Below are positions 19,730 to 44,649 of a stretch of 44,649 nucleotides of DNA, piece by piece (within the stretch, counting starts at the first letter, position 1; each line of letters begins with the position of its first letter). A model generated the notes under the pieces. It was not told the origin of the DNA. It ran no database searches and saw only the letters and a program-made list of their open reading frames with translations. The position numbers and the translations under genes were made by a program. The stretch is from Propionibacteriaceae bacterium (GTDB lineage: Bacteria > Actinomycetota > Actinomycetes > Propionibacteriales > Propionibacteriaceae): assembly GCA_030532575.1 (NCBI GenBank), contig JAUNKV010000025.1, positions 1 to 44,649 on the forward strand, in the 5' to 3' direction.

Positions 19730-19871
19730 CCCAGCGATGGTACGCGAGTCACCCGGAAACCCCGGGGGGCTTCCGCTGCTGGTTTGCAAGCTGTTAGCCT
19801 TGTCAACCGGAAGGACCCTTCCACCACTACGGATCGTCGGGCACGTACCTGCCCGTGGAAAGGAATGTGGC

Positions 19872-26945: not shown

Positions 26946-28316
26946 GTGCCCAGGTTCCTCGCAGCGAAGCCCGATGCAGCGCTGATCCGCCTGCCGTGGA
27001 ACACCCCACTGGCGGATTGGCCCACCCAGTACCTCGTCGCCCTGCCACGAGGCATCTCCCGCCATGTCGTCCGGTTCATCCAGGTGGGCGAGGACATCCT
27101 GGCGGCCAAGGAAATCCTGGAGGAGGTCGCGGTCCACGAGTACCGACAGCTCACCGAGCTGCGACGCCTCGGGGTGCCCTGCGTCGAGCCGGTCGGGGTG
27201 GTACTCGGCCGCACCACCAGCGATGGCGAGCCGCTGGACCCGATCCTGCTGACCCGGCACCTGCCCTTCTCCCTGCCCTACCGCGCCCTGTTCTACTCGG
27301 GTGTGAAGCTGGAGACGGTCAACCGGCTGCTGGATGCGATGGTCGCGCTGTTCGCGCGGCTGCACCTGACCGGGTTCTACTGGGGCGACGTGTCGCTGTC
27401 CAACATCTTGTTCCGACGCGACGCGGGCGAGTTCGCCGCCTACCTCGTCGACGCCGAGACCGGCGAGGTCCACGAACGGCTGACCAACGGGCAGCGCGCC
27501 CACGACCTGCAGATCGCCCGCACCAACCTGTTCGGCGAGTTCTGTGACCTGGAGGCGGGCGGGATGCTCGACCCGTCGCTGGACCCGCAGTGGCTGGTGG
27601 AAACCATCGAGGAGCGCTACCACAGCCTGTGGGCGGAGCTGACCGGAGTCGAGGAATTCTCCGAGAAGGAGATGTACCGCCTCGAAGGGCGGGTGCGACG
27701 GCTCAACGCACTCGGCTTCGACGTCGCCGAGATCGACGTGCGAACCTCCCCGGACGGTCGCACCATCACGATGCAGCCGAAGGTGGTGGAAGCCGGCCAC
27801 CACGCCCGTCGCCTGATGCGACTGACCGGACTCGACGCCGAGGAGCATCAGGCCAGGCGACTGCTCAACGACATGGACACCTTCCGGGCGAAACTACCGG
27901 GCACGATGAGCGAATCGGTGGCGGCCCACAAGTGGCTCATCGAGGTCTTCGAGCCCGCGGTGAGCCGCATCCCGGCCCATTTGCAGGGCAAACGCGAGCC
28001 CGCGCAGTTCTTCCACGAGCTGCTGGACTACCGCTGGTACCAGTCGCAGCGCGAGAACCGGGAGGTCTCGACCGAGGAGGCCGCCGCCGGGTACATCGCG
28101 GACGTCCTGGCGACCCTGCCGGATGAACACATGGGCAACGTGGAGCCGGTCGGCCAGGAGCTGGTCAACAAGTACGACCCGTCGCACGGTTTCATCGACG
28201 ACGACTACGAGAAGCCCTACGACCCGTGGGAGGACGAGGCCAACGACCCGGAGGTCCCGGTGATGTTCGGCTTCGACATCGAGGCCCTGCGCGCCAAGGC
28301 CGCGAAGGGGCAGTGA
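26946..28316 (+). CDS. DUF4032 protein with kinase-like (lipopolysaccharide-kinase-type) domain
   Basis: This 456-residue protein begins with a domain resembling small-molecule kinases. A Lys in ILAAKEILEEVAVHEY near 50-65 could bind ATP. GFYWGDVSLSNILF near 139-152 looks like the catalytic loop with Asp and Asn, and YLVDAETGE near 162-170 occupies the DFG-like metal site. The C-terminal half (about 230-456) is the DUF4032 domain, ending in an acidic tail. The family is widespread in Actinobacteria with unknown substrate. GTG at 26946 lies eight bases after TAAACT, a possible -10, suggesting leaderless expression. Confidence 0.85.
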   Translation: MPRFLAAKPDAALIRLPWNTPLADWPTQYLVALPRGISRHVVRFIQVGEDILAAKEILEEVAVHEYRQLTELRRLGVPCVEPVGVVLGRTTSDGEPLDPILLTRHLPFSLPYRALFYSGVKLETVNRLLDAMVALFARLHLTGFYWGDVSLSNILFRRDAGEFAAYLVDAETGEVHERLTNGQRAHDLQIARTNLFGEFCDLEAGGMLDPSLDPQWLVETIEERYHSLWAELTGVEEFSEKEMYRLEGRVRRLNALGFDVAEIDVRTSPDGRTITMQPKVVEAGHHARRLMRLTGLDAEEHQARRLLNDMDTFRAKLPGTMSESVAAHKWLIEVFEPAVSRIPAHLQGKREPAQFFHELLDYRWYQSQRENREVSTEEAAAGYIADVLATLPDEHMGNVEPVGQELVNKYDPSHGFIDDDYEKPYDPWEDEANDPEVPVMFGFDIEALRAKAAKGQ

Positions 28317-33180: not shown

Positions 33181-33199
33181 TTACGTTAGCCATACCTCT
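33181..33199 (+). promoter_or_regulatory. DtxR/IdeR-like iron box before the ECF/ABC transporter operon
   Basis: TTACGTTAGCCATACCTCT matches the 19-base DtxR/IdeR consensus TTAGGTTAGCCTAACCTAA at 14 positions, including the central GTTAGCC and the right-hand ACCT. It lies 21 bases before the first start codon of a four-gene transporter operon, where a bound Fe(II)-repressor would block transcription or initiation. The match is by eye and the regulator gene is not in the window. Confidence 0.6.
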
Positions 33200-33220
33200 G
33201 ATGAGAAAGGAAAGCTTCCA

Positions 33221-33820
33221 ATGTCGGCGGCCGAGCATCTGACCCCCCAGATCCACACCGCCAGGACCGGTCGGCTCGAGAACTCGGTCCTGCACACCCG
33301 AACCCTCATGACCGTCGCCGCCTGCGCCATCGTCGGAGCAGTCGTCACGATCCCCCTCAGCTACGTCAGCATCGCACTGGCCGTCTCCCCGGCAGGCATC
33401 ATGGCCGTGTGCGCCATGATGGGCCTCTGGCTGCTGCCCTACCTGCTCCCCGGCGCACTGACCCGCAAACCCGGAGCCATCATGATCGCCGCCCTGGTGC
33501 TGGGGATCATCGGCACCTTCACCACCCCCAGCGGCGTCACCTCCATCATCGGCAACCTGATCGGCGGTGCCCTGCTCGAGGTCCCGCTGGCCCTGCTGCT
33601 CTACCGCCAGTGGAACTGGTTGGGCTACGGGCTGGCCGCCCTGACATTCGGGCTGTTCAACGGCCTGCTGTACTCGACGACGCTCCAGATCCAGGTCCCC
33701 ATCGCCGAACTGCTCCTGATGGCGGGGCTCTCAGTGGCCTCCGCACTCGTTGGTGTCGCCATCACCTTGTTCATCGTGCGACGGCTCCGCCGAGTCGGCA
33801 TCGGGGTCAAGGCGCACTGA
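33221..33820 (+). CDS. ECF transporter S component, YkoE-like
   Basis: This 199-residue integral membrane protein has about five to six helices. The region LLPYLLPGALTRKPGAIMIAAL followed by IGGALLEVPLALLLYRQWNW resembles the YkoE family of ECF substrate-binding subunits (LPGLL.G...RKPGA and G.G.E...LL.RYR.W). YkoE itself is linked to the thiamine precursor HMP. Here the operon has an iron-type operator and exporter-like ABC genes, so I do not infer thiamine. The ATG follows AAAGGAAAG. The stop is three bases from the next start, so the S subunit and the energising protein are made together. Confidence 0.8.
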   Translation: MSAAEHLTPQIHTARTGRLENSVLHTRTLMTVAACAIVGAVVTIPLSYVSIALAVSPAGIMAVCAMMGLWLLPYLLPGALTRKPGAIMIAALVLGIIGTFTTPSGVTSIIGNLIGGALLEVPLALLLYRQWNWLGYGLAALTFGLFNGLLYSTTLQIQVPIAELLLMAGLSVASALVGVAITLFIVRRLRRVGIGVKAH

Positions 33821-33823
33821 ACG

Positions 33824-36298
33824 ATGCTCCGCCCCAGCGAGAACCTGGCCTTCTGTCACGAGGTCGGTGTCCGCCACGCCGGACGCGAGGTCTGGCAGCC
33901 CGACAGCGCAACCTTCACCATCACCCCCGGTAAACTCATCGCCCTGATCGGTCCCTCCGGTTGTGGCAAGTCGTCACTGACCCTCACCCTCAACGGTTTG
34001 GTTCCCCACTCGGTTCCCTCCGCGTATCGGGGCGCCGTGCTGATCCGAGGCCAGGAGGTGGCCGAGCAGCGGATCGCACACCTGGCCACCGACGTCGCGA
34101 TGGTGATGCAGGACCCGGACTCACAGATCGTCACGACGAGTGTGCTCGACGAGGTGACCTGGGGACCGAGCAACCTCTGTCTACCCGTCGAGGAGATCCA
34201 CAACCGCGCCAGACAGGCCCTGTCCCAGGTGGGGTTGCTCGAACACGCCAACCGCAACCCGTGGGAGCTCTCCGGTGGGCAACGGCAACGCCTGGTGCTG
34301 GCCGCTGCCCTGGCGATGCGTCCCGCCCTGCTGGTGCTGGACGAGCCGACGGCGAACATCGACCCCACCACCGGCGCAGGCATCCACCGGCTCCTCGCCC
34401 GGATCACCGGACAGGGCACCGCGGTGCTCATCGTGGAGCACGACCTGGACCCGATCATCGGGGATGTCGACGAGGTGATCGCCCTCGACGCCGACGGCGC
34501 CACCCTGGCCCAGGGGCCACCCCGGGATGTGCTGCACCGGCACCGCGAGGCCCTGAGCGCTGCGGGGATCGCGTTGCCGACCTGCGTCCAACTGGCATCC
34601 CACATCCCGGAGCTCGGGGACTCCCTCACCCTCGCCGAAGGCATCGAGGCCCTACGGCGGTACCCGGCGGCACGTGACAGACTCACCGAGCAGGTGGCGG
34701 CCTCGGCCTGGCCCGCCGTGGAAACCCCCGGGCTCACGGTGGAGAGCCTGAGCCTGTCACTTCGGGAACGGATCGTGCTGGACGGGGTGAACCTCCACGC
34801 CCCGGCCGGAGCCCTGACCACCGTCATCGGGGTCAACGGCGCAGGCAAGTCGTCGCTGCTCAGCAGCCTGGCCGGGCTGCACCCGAAAGCTCGGGCCGAA
34901 TCCTGCGGCACACCCTCCGGCCCGCTCCGCCTGACCGCACCGGACAGCCGCGTCGGATACGTGTTCCAGAACCCACAGCACCAGTTCCTGTACCCGACCC
35001 TGCGTGAGGAACTGTCCCATTCGGGGCATCTTCTTCGGGTTCCCGAGGAGGAACTGGCCCCCCGGGTGGACGAGCTACTGGCCGATCTGGGCCTGGCCGA
35101 CCGGCAGGAGCAGAGCCCATTTCTGCTCTCCGGCGGGCAGCAGCGTCGCCTGTCGGTGGCCACCGCCCTCAGCGAAGGCCGCGAGGTGCTGTGTCTCGAT
35201 GAACCCACCTTCGGGCAGGACGCCGCCTCCACCCACGCCCTGATGGAGCTGCTGTCACGCACCGCAGCCCAGGGCACCACCGTCATCATGGCCACCCACG
35301 ACCTCGGCCTGGTGCTGAAGCACGCAGCCCACGTGGTGCTGCTGCACGAGGGCCGGGTCGTCGTCGAGGGCCGCCCCATCGATGTCCTCACCGATCCGCG
35401 GCTGATCGACTGCGGGTTGACTCCCCCACCGTTGCTGCAACTCCTCGCGGAACCCGACGATGCGGCTGAGGCTCCCCCTGCCCCGCAGGACGCAACACTC
35501 CCGGAGCCACCTCGCGCCCGGCTCGGTCCCCTGACGTTGTTCCTCGGGGTGCTTCCCGCCCTGGCCCTGGTGCTGATGACGAGACGACCCGAGTTCTCAC
35601 TGGGCTGTCTGACCCTCGGTTCGGGATTCCTGCTGTGGAAGGGGCGCGGCTCCATCCTCGGACGAGCGACGCTGGTGGCTGGGCTGTGGCTGCTGGCGGC
35701 GCTGCTCACCTGGTCAGGGATGCTCTCCTACCGGTTCGACCTGCACGGCCTCACCACCCCCATCCAGGTGGGCCCTTTCACCGTCGATGAAGGACAGTGG
35801 CTGGCCGGACTCAGGGTGGGGCTGCGGATCGCGGCGCTGCTCGGGCTGGTGCTGGTCTCCGGCACCCTCACCTCGCCCCAGGATCTACTGAAATCCCTCA
35901 CCCGCACCTTCCACCTCCCGGTGCGTGTCGCCCATGCCGGTCTGGCCGCCGTCGCCTTCGTGGAGCGGTTCCGCACCGAGCACCGCATCATCCGGCAGGC
36001 CCGACGCCTCCGCGGGACCCGCGCTCCCGGTTGGCTGGCCCCGGCCTCGATCTGGATCGGCTCGATCATCCCACTGCTGGTCAGCGCCGTTCGCCACGCC
36101 GAACGGGTCTCGATGGCGATGGATGCGCGCGCCTTCGGAGCCCAGCGCCGACGCACCGAGCTCCACATCGTCCGATGGCGGCTCCTCGACACCGTCGTCC
36201 TCGTCACCGTGTGGGTCGTGATCCTCGTCCTGGCCCTCACCCTCCACCACTTCGACCTGCTCGGAAGGATAAGCCTTGAGTTCGAACACCACGGGTGA
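33824..36298 (+). CDS. ECF transporter energising module, ATPase-ATPase-transmembrane fusion
   Basis: This 824-residue single protein replaces the usual three ECF subunits. The first ATPase has Walker A GPSGCGKSS (43-51), signature LSGGQRQRL and Walker B LLVLDEPTANID. The second has Walker A GVNGAGKSS (about 336-344), LSGGQQRRL and LCLDEPTFGQD with the HDLG switch. From about 565 a T-type membrane domain follows (several helices, then FRTEHRIIRQARRLRGTRAPG, and AMDARAFGAQRRRT near the end, the coupling region that contacts the ATPases). YkoD fuses two ATPases, but the added T domain is less common. It starts three bases after the S gene and overlaps the next gene by 23 bases. Confidence 0.9.
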   Translation: MLRPSENLAFCHEVGVRHAGREVWQPDSATFTITPGKLIALIGPSGCGKSSLTLTLNGLVPHSVPSAYRGAVLIRGQEVAEQRIAHLATDVAMVMQDPDSQIVTTSVLDEVTWGPSNLCLPVEEIHNRARQALSQVGLLEHANRNPWELSGGQRQRLVLAAALAMRPALLVLDEPTANIDPTTGAGIHRLLARITGQGTAVLIVEHDLDPIIGDVDEVIALDADGATLAQGPPRDVLHRHREALSAAGIALPTCVQLASHIPELGDSLTLAEGIEALRRYPAARDRLTEQVAASAWPAVETPGLTVESLSLSLRERIVLDGVNLHAPAGALTTVIGVNGAGKSSLLSSLAGLHPKARAESCGTPSGPLRLTAPDSRVGYVFQNPQHQFLYPTLREELSHSGHLLRVPEEELAPRVDELLADLGLADRQEQSPFLLSGGQQRRLSVATALSEGREVLCLDEPTFGQDAASTHALMELLSRTAAQGTTVIMATHDLGLVLKHAAHVVLLHEGRVVVEGRPIDVLTDPRLIDCGLTPPPLLQLLAEPDDAAEAPPAPQDATLPEPPRARLGPLTLFLGVLPALALVLMTRRPEFSLGCLTLGSGFLLWKGRGSILGRATLVAGLWLLAALLTWSGMLSYRFDLHGLTTPIQVGPFTVDEGQWLAGLRVGLRIAALLGLVLVSGTLTSPQDLLKSLTRTFHLPVRVAHAGLAAVAFVERFRTEHRIIRQARRLRGTRAPGWLAPASIWIGSIIPLLVSAVRHAERVSMAMDARAFGAQRRRTELHIVRWRLLDTVVLVTVWVVILVLALTLHHFDLLGRISLEFEHHG

Positions 36299-38063
36299 CC
36301 CCGTCACAACCACCCCCGCCACGGTGTGGGACCTCATCTCCAGCGCCCGGGGCTCGATGATCCTCGGTTTCTGCCTGGCCGCCGGTGGTGCGGTGGCCAA
36401 GGTGATGCCATACATCGCCCTGGTGGAGATCGCCCGCCGACTCCTGTCCAAAGAACTGGCCCCCGGCCCGCTGTGGACATGGGTGCTGGTGGCGGTGGGG
36501 TCAATGCTGCTCCACGGCGTGCTCTACAGCACCGCGCTCAGCCGGAACCACCATGCGGAGGCCCGCCTGCGAGGGGAGCTGCGGGAACGCCTCGTGGACA
36601 AACTGGGACGGGTCAACCTCGGCTGGTTCAGCTCCCGCAGCTCAGGCCAGATCCGCAAATCGGTCGCGAAGGACACCGCCGAGATCCACGTTCTGGTGGC
36701 TCACCTGGCCGGGGACCTGGCCAATGCTGTCGTCAGCCTGCTGGCCTGCCTGGTGTACCTGTTCTGGCTGGACTGGCGTTTCGCCCTCATCCTGTTCGGC
36801 GGCACCCTCGGCCTGCTCGTGGTCGTCTACCTCCTCAGCATGACTGGGCTGGCCGACGTCTTCCGAGCCTATGGCCAGTCCGAGCGGGAGCTGTCCCATG
36901 CCGCCATCGAACTGGTGGACGGCATCAAGGAGGTGAAGAACTTCGGGATGACCGATGAGGTCTTCGGCCGTTTCGATCGGGCCCAGAAACACCACGAGCA
37001 GATATCGGTGAAGTGGTTGGAACGGCAGGGCCTCGGCATGGCACTGCTGGCCGCTGCGATGCAGCCCGCCGTCGTCTTCTCCGTCACCGCCGGACTGGGG
37101 CTGTTGTTCACCCTCCAGGGTTGGCTCAGCCCCATCACGGTGGTGGCCTTCGCCCTGGTGTGGGTGGGGCTGCCGGAGGGGCTGCTGACCCTCGGCACCA
37201 TGTCCCAGCTCCTGTACACCGCCAAACAGGCTGCGACGAACACGCTGACCATCCTGCAGGCCCCGGAACTACCGGAACCCGATGACTCGCATCCCAGCAT
37301 CGAGGGCTCCCCCGCCGTCGAACTCCGTGATGTCTCCTTCGCCTACGAGAAGGGAACCAACGTCATCGACGGTCTGTCACTGAGCTGCCCGAGAGGCAGC
37401 GTCACCGCGCTGGTCGGCCCGTCAGGGGGCGGCAAGTCAACGGTGGCGAAACTCGTGGCCCGGTTCTGGGACGTCGATTCCGGGGCGGTGCTGGTGGGGG
37501 GTCGCGACGTGCGGCAGCTGCGGAACACCGACCTGATGGCCTCGATGTCCTTGGTGTTCCAGGAGGTCCAGCTCAGCCATGACACCATCCGCACCAACAT
37601 CGCGCTCGGGCGCGAGAACGCCACTGACCAGGAGATCGAGGAGGCCGCACGAGCCGCCTGCATCCATGATCGGATCATGCAGCTGCCCGACGGCTACGAC
37701 ACGGTGATCGGTGAGGGCGCGCATCTCTCCGGTGGTGAGGCGCAGCGTCTGACCATCGCCCGGGCGTTCCTCGCAGCTGCCCCCATCCTGATCCTGGACG
37801 AGGCGACAGCCCAGGCGGACACCCACTCCGAGCGGCTGATCCAGCAGGCCATCAGCAATCTGGCGGACGGCCGAACCGTCATCGTCATCGCCCACCGGCT
37901 GGGCACCATCCAGGGAGCCGACCAGATCGCCGTCATCGACGACGGCCGGCTGGTCGAGTGCGGCACCCATGCCGACCTGCTCACCGCTGAGGGACGCTAC
38001 GCCCAGATGTGGCGGGGGCAACAGCAGCCGGTGGCCCAGCACTTCGAGGAGGAATCATGCTGA
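36276..38063 (+). CDS. ABC half-transporter (membrane plus ATPase), IrtA/YbtP-like
   Basis: This 595-residue protein has a type IV ABC membrane domain of six helices (about 25-315) and an ATPase domain: Walker A GPSGGGKST near 378-386, Q loop VFQEVQ, signature LSGGEAQRL near 486-494, Walker B ILILDEATAQAD and switch His in AHRLG. Exporter-like half-transporters paired in iron operons (IrtAB, YbtPQ) are known to import ferric siderophores. The TTG at 36276 follows GGAAGG; it overlaps the fusion gene by 23 bases and the next gene by seven, so all are coupled. The signature Ala in place of Gln is unusual but still a valid signature. Direction of transport is not visible in the sequence. Confidence 0.88.
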   Translation: MSSNTTGDPVTTTPATVWDLISSARGSMILGFCLAAGGAVAKVMPYIALVEIARRLLSKELAPGPLWTWVLVAVGSMLLHGVLYSTALSRNHHAEARLRGELRERLVDKLGRVNLGWFSSRSSGQIRKSVAKDTAEIHVLVAHLAGDLANAVVSLLACLVYLFWLDWRFALILFGGTLGLLVVVYLLSMTGLADVFRAYGQSERELSHAAIELVDGIKEVKNFGMTDEVFGRFDRAQKHHEQISVKWLERQGLGMALLAAAMQPAVVFSVTAGLGLLFTLQGWLSPITVVAFALVWVGLPEGLLTLGTMSQLLYTAKQAATNTLTILQAPELPEPDDSHPSIEGSPAVELRDVSFAYEKGTNVIDGLSLSCPRGSVTALVGPSGGGKSTVAKLVARFWDVDSGAVLVGGRDVRQLRNTDLMASMSLVFQEVQLSHDTIRTNIALGRENATDQEIEEAARAACIHDRIMQLPDGYDTVIGEGAHLSGGEAQRLTIARAFLAAAPILILDEATAQADTHSERLIQQAISNLADGRTVIVIAHRLGTIQGADQIAVIDDGRLVECGTHADLLTAEGRYAQMWRGQQQPVAQHFEEESC

Positions 38064-39796
38064 AGCAGTTCCAGCGTCACCTGGATCGACCCCAGGCCTT
38101 CTGGCTCACGGTGGTGGGGTACACGGTCTCGGCCGTGCTGCAGGGCCTCACCTTCGTGGTCATGGTCCCATTCCTGCGTGCTTACCTGGGTGACGACCCC
38201 GCCTCGGCACTGCCGTGGCTGTGGCTGCTGCTGGGGCTCGCGGCCGGGGCCTTCCTGACCCAGTTCCTCACCCTGTACCGTTCCCACCGGGTCTCGGTGG
38301 TGGATGTGTGCGGAAACCTCATCCACAAGGTCGGCAAGAAGGTCGCCGGGCTGCCACTCGGCTGGTTCAACGCCGCCACCCCGGGGCGGGTTGCCGCGCT
38401 CACCTCGACCCAGGTGAACGTGCTGTCCCATCTGGGATCCATCATCCTGCCCGGTCTGCTGGGCGCGACCGTCGTTCCCGCGACGGTGCTGGTGGCCTTG
38501 CTGTTCGTCGACTGGCGGATGGCGCTGGTGCTGGCCGTGGCCGTGCCCGCCGGGTGGCTGGTGTGGCGGTGGGGCCTGCAGGTGCTGCGGGTGGAGCAGG
38601 AGCAGGAACCCCGACTCGCCGCCGCCAGTGCCGGTCGGCTGATCGAGTACGCGCAGCTGCAACCAGTGCTGAGAGCCCGTGGCCTGCACGGACTGGCCTG
38701 GCAGCCCCTCCGTCGGACCCTGACCGAGGAGAACACGGCCATGACCCGGGTGCTGCGGCTCCAGGGGCCACCACTCGGCGCATCAGCGCTGCTGGCCCAG
38801 GCCCTCTTCGCGGCGGTGCTGGCGGTGGGGCTGTGGTTGCTGCTCGGCGGCTCCCTGGATGTCGCGACATTCCTCGCCGTCGCATTGCTCAGCACCCGGT
38901 TCACCACCCCGCTGGGCCAGGCGCTGCTGTTCCAGGGGGAGGTGCAGAAGGCCGGTATCGCACTGCAGGAGATGGATGCGGTGCTGGACGAGCCGGAGCT
39001 GCCCGACGGCGACGAGCCACGACAACTGAGCGGATTCGACATCGAGTTCCACGACGTGGGTTTCAGCTACGAACCGGGACGGCCACTGCTGGACGGGTTC
39101 TCGTTGTGCGCCCCACAGGGCCGGATCACAGCGCTGGTGGGACCGTCGGGGTGCGGCAAGTCGACATGTCAGAAGCTGGTGGCCCGGTTCTGGGACGTCG
39201 ATTCCGGACGCATCACCATCGGTGGGGTGGACGTACGGGAACTACCCACCGAGCAACTGATGGGGATGATCTCCATGGTGTTCCAGGACGTGTACCTGTT
39301 CGACACCACCATCCTGGACAACGTGCGGCTGGCCCGGCCGGACGCCACCGACGAGGAAGTGGCCGAGGCGGTGCGTCGTGCCAGGTTGGACTCGATGGTG
39401 GCACGGCTTCCGGAGGGGCTTCAGACGCGGGTCGGTGAGGGTGGGCTGAGACTGTCCGGCGGTGAGCGGCAGCGGGTGTCCATCGCTCGAGCATTTCTGA
39501 AGGACTCCCCAATCCTGCTGCTGGACGAGATCACCTCGGCGCTGGATGCGGAGAACGAGGCGCTGCTCACCCGGACCCTCGCGGAGCTGTCGGAGGGCCG
39601 CACCGTCGTGGTGATCGCCCATCGGCTGACCACCATCATGAATGCCGATTCGGTTGCGGTGCTCTCGGGTCGGGAGAAGGGCGAGGCAACCCGCATCGTC
39701 GAGCAGGGGTCCCCCGAAGAGCTGCAGGCCGCCGGGGGGCTGTTCGCCGAGCTGGTGGCGGACTCCACGGCCGTGAGCCGCTGGCGGCTGGGGTGA
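38057..39796 (+). CDS. ABC half-transporter (membrane plus ATPase), IrtB/YbtQ-like
   Basis: This 579-residue partner of the preceding half-transporter begins MLKQFQRHLDRPQAFWLTV, an elbow helix followed by six membrane segments to about 310. The ATPase domain carries Walker A GPSGCGKST, the Q loop VFQDVYLFD, signature LSGGERQRV, Walker B LLLDEITSALD and the switch His in IAHRLTT. The two ATPase domains share the unusual segment VARFWDVDSG, suggesting origin by duplication. The ATG has AGGAGG upstream and overlaps the previous stop. It ends exactly where the convergent SUKH-like gene ends, with no base between. I infer a heterodimer importing an iron-related ligand. Confidence 0.88.
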   Translation: MLKQFQRHLDRPQAFWLTVVGYTVSAVLQGLTFVVMVPFLRAYLGDDPASALPWLWLLLGLAAGAFLTQFLTLYRSHRVSVVDVCGNLIHKVGKKVAGLPLGWFNAATPGRVAALTSTQVNVLSHLGSIILPGLLGATVVPATVLVALLFVDWRMALVLAVAVPAGWLVWRWGLQVLRVEQEQEPRLAAASAGRLIEYAQLQPVLRARGLHGLAWQPLRRTLTEENTAMTRVLRLQGPPLGASALLAQALFAAVLAVGLWLLLGGSLDVATFLAVALLSTRFTTPLGQALLFQGEVQKAGIALQEMDAVLDEPELPDGDEPRQLSGFDIEFHDVGFSYEPGRPLLDGFSLCAPQGRITALVGPSGCGKSTCQKLVARFWDVDSGRITIGGVDVRELPTEQLMGMISMVFQDVYLFDTTILDNVRLARPDATDEEVAEAVRRARLDSMVARLPEGLQTRVGEGGLRLSGGERQRVSIARAFLKDSPILLLDEITSALDAENEALLTRTLAELSEGRTVVVIAHRLTTIMNADSVAVLSGREKGEATRIVEQGSPEELQAAGGLFAELVADSTAVSRWRLG

Positions 39797-42612: not shown

Positions 42613-43968
42613 ATGAGCACTCCTCTTCCCGCCACTGCCGCCGAGGCCTTCGATGCCTTGGCCGATGCGGCTGCGCATCTGCGCGCCGCGGAGGTGGCCG
42701 AGGTGCTGGCGATTGCCCGGGCTGTTGAGGCGTACCGGATCGACCAGGCCGCGGTTGAAGAGGCCTTCGAGGACTGCCACGCCGGTCACGTGGATGCCTC
42801 CTTCGGTGTGGGCCAGTTCCTGGCCCTCGAGGTGGGCGCCATCCTGGGCGTCTCACCCCGGGCGGCCATCTGCCGGATCGCCGATGTGATCGCGGTGCGG
42901 GACCGGTTCCCGTTCCTGTGGCGCACCTTCCTGGTCGGAGACCTGCGGTGGTGGCAGATCACCGACGCGATCCACCGGCCGGGAGTCTCCACACTCAGCC
43001 TGGAGGGGGCTCGTTGGCTGGATCACCAGTTGAGCATCGCGATGCGCACCAGCTCCTGGCAGCAGGTCAGGGGCCGGATCGCGGGCTGGGTGCTCCAGGC
43101 GGACCCGGTGGCCGCGGCCGAGCGTGAAGCCGCTGCACGACAGAGCCGGTTCGTGTGGGTGGACAGGATCGACAACGGTCACTGCTCCCTCTACGGCCGC
43201 CTGGCAGCTCGGGACGCAGTGGATTTCGACCATGCCCTGGCCAGCGTCGCAGCAACCATCCCCACCGAGGCCGGAACCCTGGACCAGCGCCGTGCCGCAG
43301 CAGTCGGGGTGCTCGCCCGGCAGGCAGTCGGGCAGGACACCCTCCCCGAGGTGACCCTGGTGGTCCACATCGACGCCGACGACCCGGCGCTGTCCGGTGA
43401 GAACGAGTCCTGCGGAGTTGCGGAGATCGAACGCTGGGGCTCCCTGCTCACCACCCAGCTGCCGGAATTCCTGGCCGACTCCAAGGTCACCGTCCGGCCC
43501 GTGATCGATCCCTGGCGGATCAGCCCGCAGAACCGTCACGACCCTTCTGTCGCTCTGTGGACGGCAGTCACCGCCCTCATGCCGGTGGACATGTTCCCCT
43601 ACGGGTCGATCTCCTCCCGACGCTGTGACATCGACCACACCATCCCACACACCAACAGCCCTGATGACGGGGTCGGCTTGACCCGGTGGGGAAACCTCGC
43701 ACCCCTGTCGCGCAGGGCCCACCTCGGCAAGACCTTCGGCGGATGGCAGATGACCCAACCTGCCCCCGGAGTGATCCACTGGCGCTCCCCAGCCGGGTTC
43801 GAGTACCTGGTCACCGCATGGACAGGCACGATCCGGCTCCGCAGACCGCAGCCGACACCCCGGCTCGAGGAACCACCCCCACCGTGGCTGGAACCACCCG
43901 AACCACCGGAAGAACCCAACCTCGAAACCGAGGCGTGGGAGTGGGTCCAACACACCCTCACAGCCTGA
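42613..43968 (+). CDS. DUF222 / HNH endonuclease protein (13E12 repeat family)
   Basis: This 451-residue protein has an N-terminal helical DUF222 region (about 1-290, with VGVLARQAVGQDTLPEVTLVVHID) and a C-terminal HNH nuclease: RRCDIDHTIPH near 338-348, then GNLAPLSRRAHLGKTFGGW near 360-378, giving the Asp-His, Asn and final His. The first Cys of the Cys pairs seen in many relatives is missing, so metal structure binding may differ. A Pro/Glu-rich tail follows. Family members are multicopy in Actinobacteria, including REP13E12 of Mycobacterium. It is followed at once by long inverted repeats. Confidence 0.88.
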   Translation: MSTPLPATAAEAFDALADAAAHLRAAEVAEVLAIARAVEAYRIDQAAVEEAFEDCHAGHVDASFGVGQFLALEVGAILGVSPRAAICRIADVIAVRDRFPFLWRTFLVGDLRWWQITDAIHRPGVSTLSLEGARWLDHQLSIAMRTSSWQQVRGRIAGWVLQADPVAAAEREAAARQSRFVWVDRIDNGHCSLYGRLAARDAVDFDHALASVAATIPTEAGTLDQRRAAAVGVLARQAVGQDTLPEVTLVVHIDADDPALSGENESCGVAEIERWGSLLTTQLPEFLADSKVTVRPVIDPWRISPQNRHDPSVALWTAVTALMPVDMFPYGSISSRRCDIDHTIPHTNSPDDGVGLTRWGNLAPLSRRAHLGKTFGGWQMTQPAPGVIHWRSPAGFEYLVTAWTGTIRLRRPQPTPRLEEPPPPWLEPPEPPEEPNLETEAWEWVQHTLTA

Positions 43969-43979
43969 AACAGCCGCTT

Positions 43980-44649
43980 CCCACTGAACAGAGGCTTCGC
44001 ATCGGACTCCCAGCTCGCCCAGCGGACCCCCCGCTGGCCGAGCTTCAGCGCCCCAGCGCCCGACAGTCGAGACCTCTCTTTCTTCCGCTGGTCGAGCCGG
44101 TTCCGGAGCTCTGCGGAGGAACCGTGTCGAGACCCCTGACGCCCGGCGCAGTGACTTGAGCTGAGCAGGGTTGGTCCGGGGCTGGGTTTCTGCGCATGGT
44201 TGCGGGGTCTCGACACGGGATTCCCTCGCTCCGCATCGGGACTCCCGGCTCGACCAGCGGAAAGGAGGGTCCAGCTCGACCACCGGAGGGGAGACCGTCC
44301 CCCTTCCCCGCTGGTCGAGCTTCAGCGCCCCAGCGCCCGATTGTCGAGACCTCTCTTTCTTCCGCTGGTCGAGCCGGTTCCGGAGCTCTGCGGAGGAACC
44401 GTGTCGAGACCCCTGACGCCCGGTGCAGTGACTTGAACCGAGCGGGGATGATCTGGGGCTGGGTTTCTGCGGATGGTTGCGGGGTCTCGACACGGGACTC
44501 CCTCGCTCCGCATCGGGACTCCCGGCTCGACCAGCGGAACCCCCGCTGGTCGAGCTTCAGCGCCCCAGCGCCCGATTGTCGAGACCTCTCTTCCTTCCGC
44601 TGGTCGAGCCGGTTCCGGAGCTCTGCGGAGGAACCGTGTCGAGACCCCT
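43980..44649. repeat. Tandem long repeats of the GGTCGAG/GTGTCGAGACC family
   Basis: CCGCTGGTCGAGCCGG starts at 44085, 44362 and 44597, giving unit lengths of 277 and 235; the 42-base difference is extra spacer around 44263-44305. Each unit has GTGTCGAGACC, then GGTCTCGACACGGG, CTCCCTCGCTCCGCATCGGG and CGGCTCGACCAGCGG, so left and right halves are largely complementary and could form one long hairpin. The last unit is cut by the end of the window. No open frame in it looks protein-like, and this is not a CRISPR. Confidence 0.85.

Follow-up and report, generated by a model that had tools for sequence, protein, structure and literature searches.

The 44,649-nucleotide contig JAUNKV010000025.1 of an Arachnia-like Propionibacteriaceae bacterium (assembly GCA_030532575.1, 3.19-Mb genome), referred to here at its full length as the window, carries at positions 33181–39796 a four-gene operon encoding an energy-coupling factor (ECF) transporter followed by two ATP-binding cassette (ABC) half-transporters. 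From sequence comparisons across related loci, we infer that this operon is probably repressed by DtxR and encodes two separate ATP-driven transporters that would import ferric siderophores of other microbes. In the best reading of the data, the two transporters would have regulation and substrate class in common rather than form one machine. The operon comprises the following features:

33181..33199, no strand: DtxR/IdeR-like box, 14/19, 21 nt 5′ of the S start codon
33221..33820, + strand: S subunit, YkoE fold (PF09819), iron clade, key thiamine contacts gone; 199 aa, ATG start
33824..36298, + strand: A-A-T fused ECF module (ATPase A, ATPase A′, transmembrane T); 824 aa
36276..38063, + strand: H1, IrtA-like half-transporter with a three-His metal site (H92, H138, H143), without N-terminal SID; 595 aa
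38009..39796, + strand: H2, IrtB/YbtQ-like half-transporter; GTG 38009 listed, ATG 38057 likelier

The listing of open reading frames (ORFs) and a Pfam scan confirmed the gene identities and the tight four-gene packing behind the box proposed in the initial annotation, whose start at 33181 is that of the box, while the S gene itself begins at 33221. All four ORFs were found in the window, with 3 nt between the S stop and the A-A-T start and a 23-nt overlap of H1 (first start TTG) with the 3′ end of A-A-T. For H2, the in-frame ATG at 38057, forming a stop–start overlap with H1 (ATGCTGA), appears likelier as the start than the GTG at 38009. S matches PF09819 (ABC_cobalt, YkoE) at 57.4 bits against a cutoff of 25.2; no NCBIfam model scored above its cutoff for this protein. 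A-A-T consists of two ABC_tran stretches and CbiQ. With the S-component (YkoE) fold of S, two ATPases with intact Walker A, signature and Walker B motifs and a T domain bearing two Ala-Arg..Gly motifs, S and A-A-T qualify as an ECF transporter. H1 and H2 each combine ABC_membrane with ABC_tran. The nearest named relative of the operon occurs in Arachnia propionica OH887_COT-365 (L048; S 77% identical). The A-A-T fusion, initially regarded as unusual, is ordinary, because the host's canonical ykoE locus, which carries a thiamine pyrophosphate (TPP) riboswitch, has one too: a single frame there aligns over A-A-T residues 24–814.

The S subunit has lost key thiamine contacts

In a sample of 147 genomes of the family, 83 contained PF09819 and the cassette was patchily distributed; the divergent S kind, defined as a low-scoring PF09819 copy (46.7–75.7 bits), was present in ten, with one 27-bit fragment left out. 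Combining the window, nine loci from this sample and 27 of 32 named loci (five duplicates dropped) yielded a set of 37 non-redundant cassette loci.

YkoE contacts thiamine through Trp49, Glu77, Gln95, Asp131 and Tyr46 (PMC5037267; this and the other articles are cited from excerpts). In a profile alignment to 5edl with hand-counted positions, the window S keeps Trp49 and has Gly, Gly, Tyr and Met at Glu77, Gln95, Asp131 and Tyr46, respectively. The Gln95 column holds Gln in 29/31 canonical rows and in none of the 37 cassette rows, and the Asp131 column holds Glu or Asp in 31/31 and 0/37, while the stacking Trp is retained in 36/37 cassette rows. The thiamine pocket of S has, thus, lost key polar contacts. 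In the S tree, 61 iron-clade rows separated from 31 canonical and two class rows (100/99). Regulation differs as well; a TPP riboswitch was detected at 17 of the 20 canonical loci submitted but neither in the window nor at any of the nine cassette loci submitted.

Compared with the thiamine ECF transporter YkoEDC (PMC5037267), the system studied here, therefore, has an S subunit of a separate clade lacking key thiamine contacts and a DtxR-like box instead of a TPP riboswitch. The YkoE fold and the nearly invariant Trp would be in keeping with S still carrying a vitamin, thiamine or a precursor, next to the half-transporters by coincidence. We consider this very unlikely in view of the altered Gln95 and Asp131 positions in 37/37 rows, the separate clade, the DtxR-like boxes and the canonical ykoE with TPP riboswitch that the host retains. 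Thiamine binding by S is accordingly made improbable by both pocket residues and regulation; the initial annotation had named binding of thiamine precursors, together with an unrelated export role of the half-transporters, as evidence that would speak against its reading. The ligand may rather be a ferric siderophore or similar chelate.

A DtxR-like box recurs in related operons

The window box TTACGTTAGCCATACCTCT (33181–33199) agrees at 14/19 positions with the DtxR consensus and is the only site of at least 14 in the 44.6-kb window. In an alignment, the corresponding position of three congeneric operons held sites scoring 14, 15 and 17. In a scan covering the 250 bp ahead of the S match and its first 30 bp, 21/37 cassette loci reached at least 14/19, compared with 0.65% of 4174 background windows from the same loci, and the upstream site exceeded every background window of its own locus in 25/37. 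None of 28 canonical ykoE loci reached 13 in the 400 bp before the profile match. The box is, therefore, not absent from homologous operons, an outcome that the initial annotation had considered. With the box at 21 loci and not at 16, the cassette would belong to a predicted DtxR/IdeR regulon, and because the box is shared with related operons, repression by DtxR when iron is plentiful seems probable.

Four of the 16 loci missing a 14/19 site directly upstream have a site of 15–17 located 3.1–3.7 kb upstream of S. In L065 and L066, where H1 precedes S, this distal site lies at the H1 start. In L057 and L059, a second ECF precedes S, and its own S subunit is of MptD type (Trep_Strep), as indicated by a Pfam match for L059 and by similarity for L057. 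These two Actinomyces loci carry the MptD-type ECF immediately 5′ of the YkoE-type cassette (L057:5001–7874 and L059:4854–7821). A different element, a cobalamin riboswitch, was seen ~3 kb 5′ of an S gene without a DtxR-like site in Propionimicrobium lymphophilum (L069:4796–5008).

The host genome contains one PF02742 regulator, and the box pattern matches three other host loci, of which two open with a Peripla_BP_2 protein (Pfam) followed by permease and ATPase frames, read as ferric-siderophore type. It also encodes three FAD_binding_9 reductases of the siderophore-interacting protein (SIP) type, one directly preceded by a 15/19 site. These data support the proposed link of the operon to iron and siderophores.

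H1 and H2 resemble IrtAB and YbtPQ

Among the best 60 PDB matches of the half-transporters, full-length two-domain exporters (plant ABCB19, P-glycoprotein) ranked top in summed score. Restricting these matches to one-half chains, H1 was nearest to IrtA (372 bits), followed by 6p6i_A (302 bits), which we take to be YbtP from the name of its YbtQ partner chain; H2 was nearest to YbtQ (283 bits) and IrtB (274 bits). With the H1 membrane half alone, the top ten rows were IrtA chains (6tej_A being identified from the name of its partner) and 6p6i_A, before a drop from 78 to 39 bits in the next row. H1 is 35% identical to annotated YbtP.

The mycobacterial importer IrtAB binds metal through IrtA His356, His402 and His407, of which the third is replaced by Asp in YbtP of the yersiniabactin importer YbtPQ (PMC10246721). 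All three align with His in H1 (H92, H138 and H143), which thereby differs from YbtP at the third position. The triad was present in 27/28 H1 and in 3/3 IrtA-side proteins of siderophore loci and absent from all 28 H2, six other host exporters and five Escherichia coli exporters, and half-transporters of IrtA type can be recognized simply by testing a sequence for it. Unlike IrtA, H1 has no N-terminal SID, as its residue 24 aligns with IrtA residue 289 and the Pfam scan found no FAD_binding_9; the pair also differs from IrtAB in being linked to an ECF module. In a 73-row tree, two clades (100/100 each) were separate from the exporters of the host and of E. coli: one of 27 H1 with three siderophore-locus proteins, the other of 26 H2 with the remaining three. 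A Mobiluncus mulieris pair (L163) fell outside both clades. Three plasmid relatives were opened: two Streptomyces plasmids with salicylate synthase and nonribosomal peptide synthetase (NRPS) genes and one from Azospirillum with a TonB siderophore receptor. Overall, the IrtA-type metal site leans toward import by H1–H2.

The ECF transporter and the pair occur together and apart

Gene order proved conserved in a neighborhood check, with the pair no more than 8 kb from S in 27/37 loci; L051, cut by a contig end, was included on the strength of H1 only, and L041 was not judged. The initial annotation called the combination little described, which holds in part; a precedent for the pairing has existed since 2008 in the equibactin locus eqbA–N of Streptococcus equi, where DtxR-like control governs the importer eqbHIJ beside YbtPQ-like eqbKL (PMC3672683). 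According to the same article, eqbHIJ is called a ferric-siderophore-like ABC importer with demonstrated iron uptake, and its deletion abolishes siderophore-dependent iron uptake, whereas eqbKL deletion does not. That locus differs in having its own siderophore synthesis genes, separate subunits and a location on a streptococcal integrative element. By analogy, it supports the ECF as an importer, not a direction for the pair. In Staphylococcus lugdunensis, an ECF importer adjoins an equibactin-like NRPS (PMC12709192), and on a Clostridioides difficile island an equibactin-like cluster is accompanied by ABC genes and an Ecf gene (PMC6814731).

Both modules were also found separately. Boxed ECFs of the clade without an adjoining pair occurred in L039, L042, L055, L063 and L075 and in sister regions. 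Eight of the 32 named loci had no pair nearby, and their genomes carry H1-like genes elsewhere (H1 profile; five at 682–888 and three at 424–483 bits; in-operon copies 921 and 1000 bits). A site of 14–17 directly precedes H1 genes sited away from the YkoE-type ECF in L158, L160, L161, L162 and L164 and was not found there in L157 and L159. The L158 pair is sister to that of the window, yet follows an MptD-type ECF, and the looser pair of L163 adjoins another. Similarly, a mobilizable 20.7-kb Corynebacterium plasmid (NZ_CP068167; L167:8138–14528) carries an MptD-type (Trep_Strep) ECF with S, T, a double ATPase and two half-transporters after a 16/19 site, as in the window, but with an S of another Pfam family (PF09605 kind) and a separate T.

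We further read 20 sister ECF regions from a class sample, 17 of them from one further family. None had a pair nearby, and ten had a site of at least 14 at or near the ATPase gene. In six, all from that further family, a SIP gene lies between T and S (L121:9731–10603; L117, L118, L120 with a split frame, L123 and L124); the short locus L100 seems to have the same arrangement. These operons point to siderophore ECFs more strongly than the window does. L120 (G511) has two iron-clade S genes near each other, with four S matches in G511 in total.

A single relay, in which S passes ligand to the exporter-fold pair or receives product from it, could draw on the linkage in 27/37 loci and on related pairs adjoining ECFs of an unrelated S family. 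Against it stand the ECFs without a pair and pairs without a YkoE-type ECF, each with box-like sites, and the sites of 15 and 14 before H1 inside the cassettes of L070 and L073. An S subunit serving the pair, as first suggested, also conflicts with equibactin, where the ECF-like importer and not the YbtPQ-like pair is required. We regard such a relay as hardly credible. Because ECF and pair also occur apart, they look like partners, not parts, consistent with two transporters.

Substrate and transport direction

A search of the host genome for PF00668 (NRPS condensation), PF04183 (IucA/C) and PF01126 (haem oxygenase) returned no match, the IsdG type of haem oxygenase not being searched for. 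Uptake of siderophores made by others is the likeliest role. The initial annotation had proposed two transporters for one siderophore or haem, of which the siderophore part is supported and haem is less likely. The haem transporter LhaSTA of S. lugdunensis is likewise an iron-regulated ECF importer, with others cited from streptococci and lactobacilli; the excerpts mention no exporter-fold pair (PMC7299338). That S binds haem or another iron porphyrin in the same manner is improbable, given the SIP reductases in 6/20 sister regions, the missing PF01126 and the siderophore loci in which all three opened plasmid relatives of the pair reside.

Several observations weigh against a pair of siderophore importers under DtxR control. 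Glu77 and Tyr46 vary among canonical rows too and are, therefore, uninformative, and the 37 cassette S sequences are not one clade, with 34 together and L038/L040 and L041 apart. A score of 14 is also attained by seven of 100 shuffled versions of the window, scanning the window for the strict DtxR consensus with up to three mismatches found no site, and 16/37 cassette loci have no 14/19 site directly upstream of S. On its own, the window box would be weak evidence, and its interpretation is carried by the comparison with related operons. The window contains no SIP gene. Lastly, the three-His site indicates kinship to IrtA rather than transport direction, and eqbKL is dispensable for import, its authors considering export possible (PMC3672683).

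The last two points bear on an alternative in which S and A-A-T import the ferric siderophore while the IrtAB-like pair sends the stripped siderophore back out or acts as a siderophore exporter. The type IV fold of the pair is found mostly in exporters, and besides the need for EqbHIJ and not EqbKL in iron uptake, medium of the eqbKL deletion strain was twofold less active (PMC3672683). This alternative deserves consideration but is clearly the less likely one; 27/28 H1 have the full IrtA metal site, the nearest one-half solved chains among the best PDB matches are the importers IrtA, YbtP, YbtQ and IrtB, and, without PF00668 or PF04183, the host would have no siderophore of those kinds to export.

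Flanking region

Outside the operon, an msiK RNA motif (RF01747, 51.9 bits) was detected at 19809–19868 (+) and also in L054 and L058. Genes of the kind at 26946–28316 recur in L048, L049, L054 and L058, so the flank is partly common with Schaalia. At 43599–44493, 3′ of ORF 42613–43968, frames with repeated text perhaps mark a repeat array.

Proposed mechanism and implications

S toppling and release inside are general to ECF transporters. In the mechanism we propose, Fe-DtxR on the box at 33181–33199 would halt transcription, as suggested by its sharing with related operons. The YkoE-fold S would take a ferric siderophore or similar chelate into its altered pocket, and A-A-T, by its fold and motifs, would dock S and drive its toppling and release. 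The IrtA/IrtB-like heterodimer would import ferric siderophore by its own path. Because H1 has no SID, separate SIP-type reductases may free the iron, candidates being the three in the host, including the one with a DtxR-like box.

The cassette is real and conserved and is predicted to be iron-linked. While ECF and YbtPQ-like pairing was already known from equibactin, the most novel elements are the iron clade of YkoE-type S subunits, the exchange of this type with MptD-type ECFs near related pairs and the reductase-bearing sister operons. More tentatively, the YkoE-fold clade might represent vitamin carriers that became ferric-siderophore receptors, providing actinobacteria with membrane-embedded siderophore uptake without a separate binding protein and partnered by an IrtAB-like pair or an in-operon reductase. 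Where the pair is present, each transporter might then be responsible for a different form of the same siderophore, such as the soluble ferric complex for one and a form that is stripped or held in the membrane for the other.

If true, several actinobacterial lineages (Arachnia, Actinomyces, Schaalia, Mobiluncus and a further family) would have adapted vitamin-type ECF S subunits to iron chelates, with the altered pocket positions as a concrete place for testing this switch. The window would, moreover, offer a compact system for addressing why ECF modules and IrtAB-like pairs so often adjoin, a question since equibactin.

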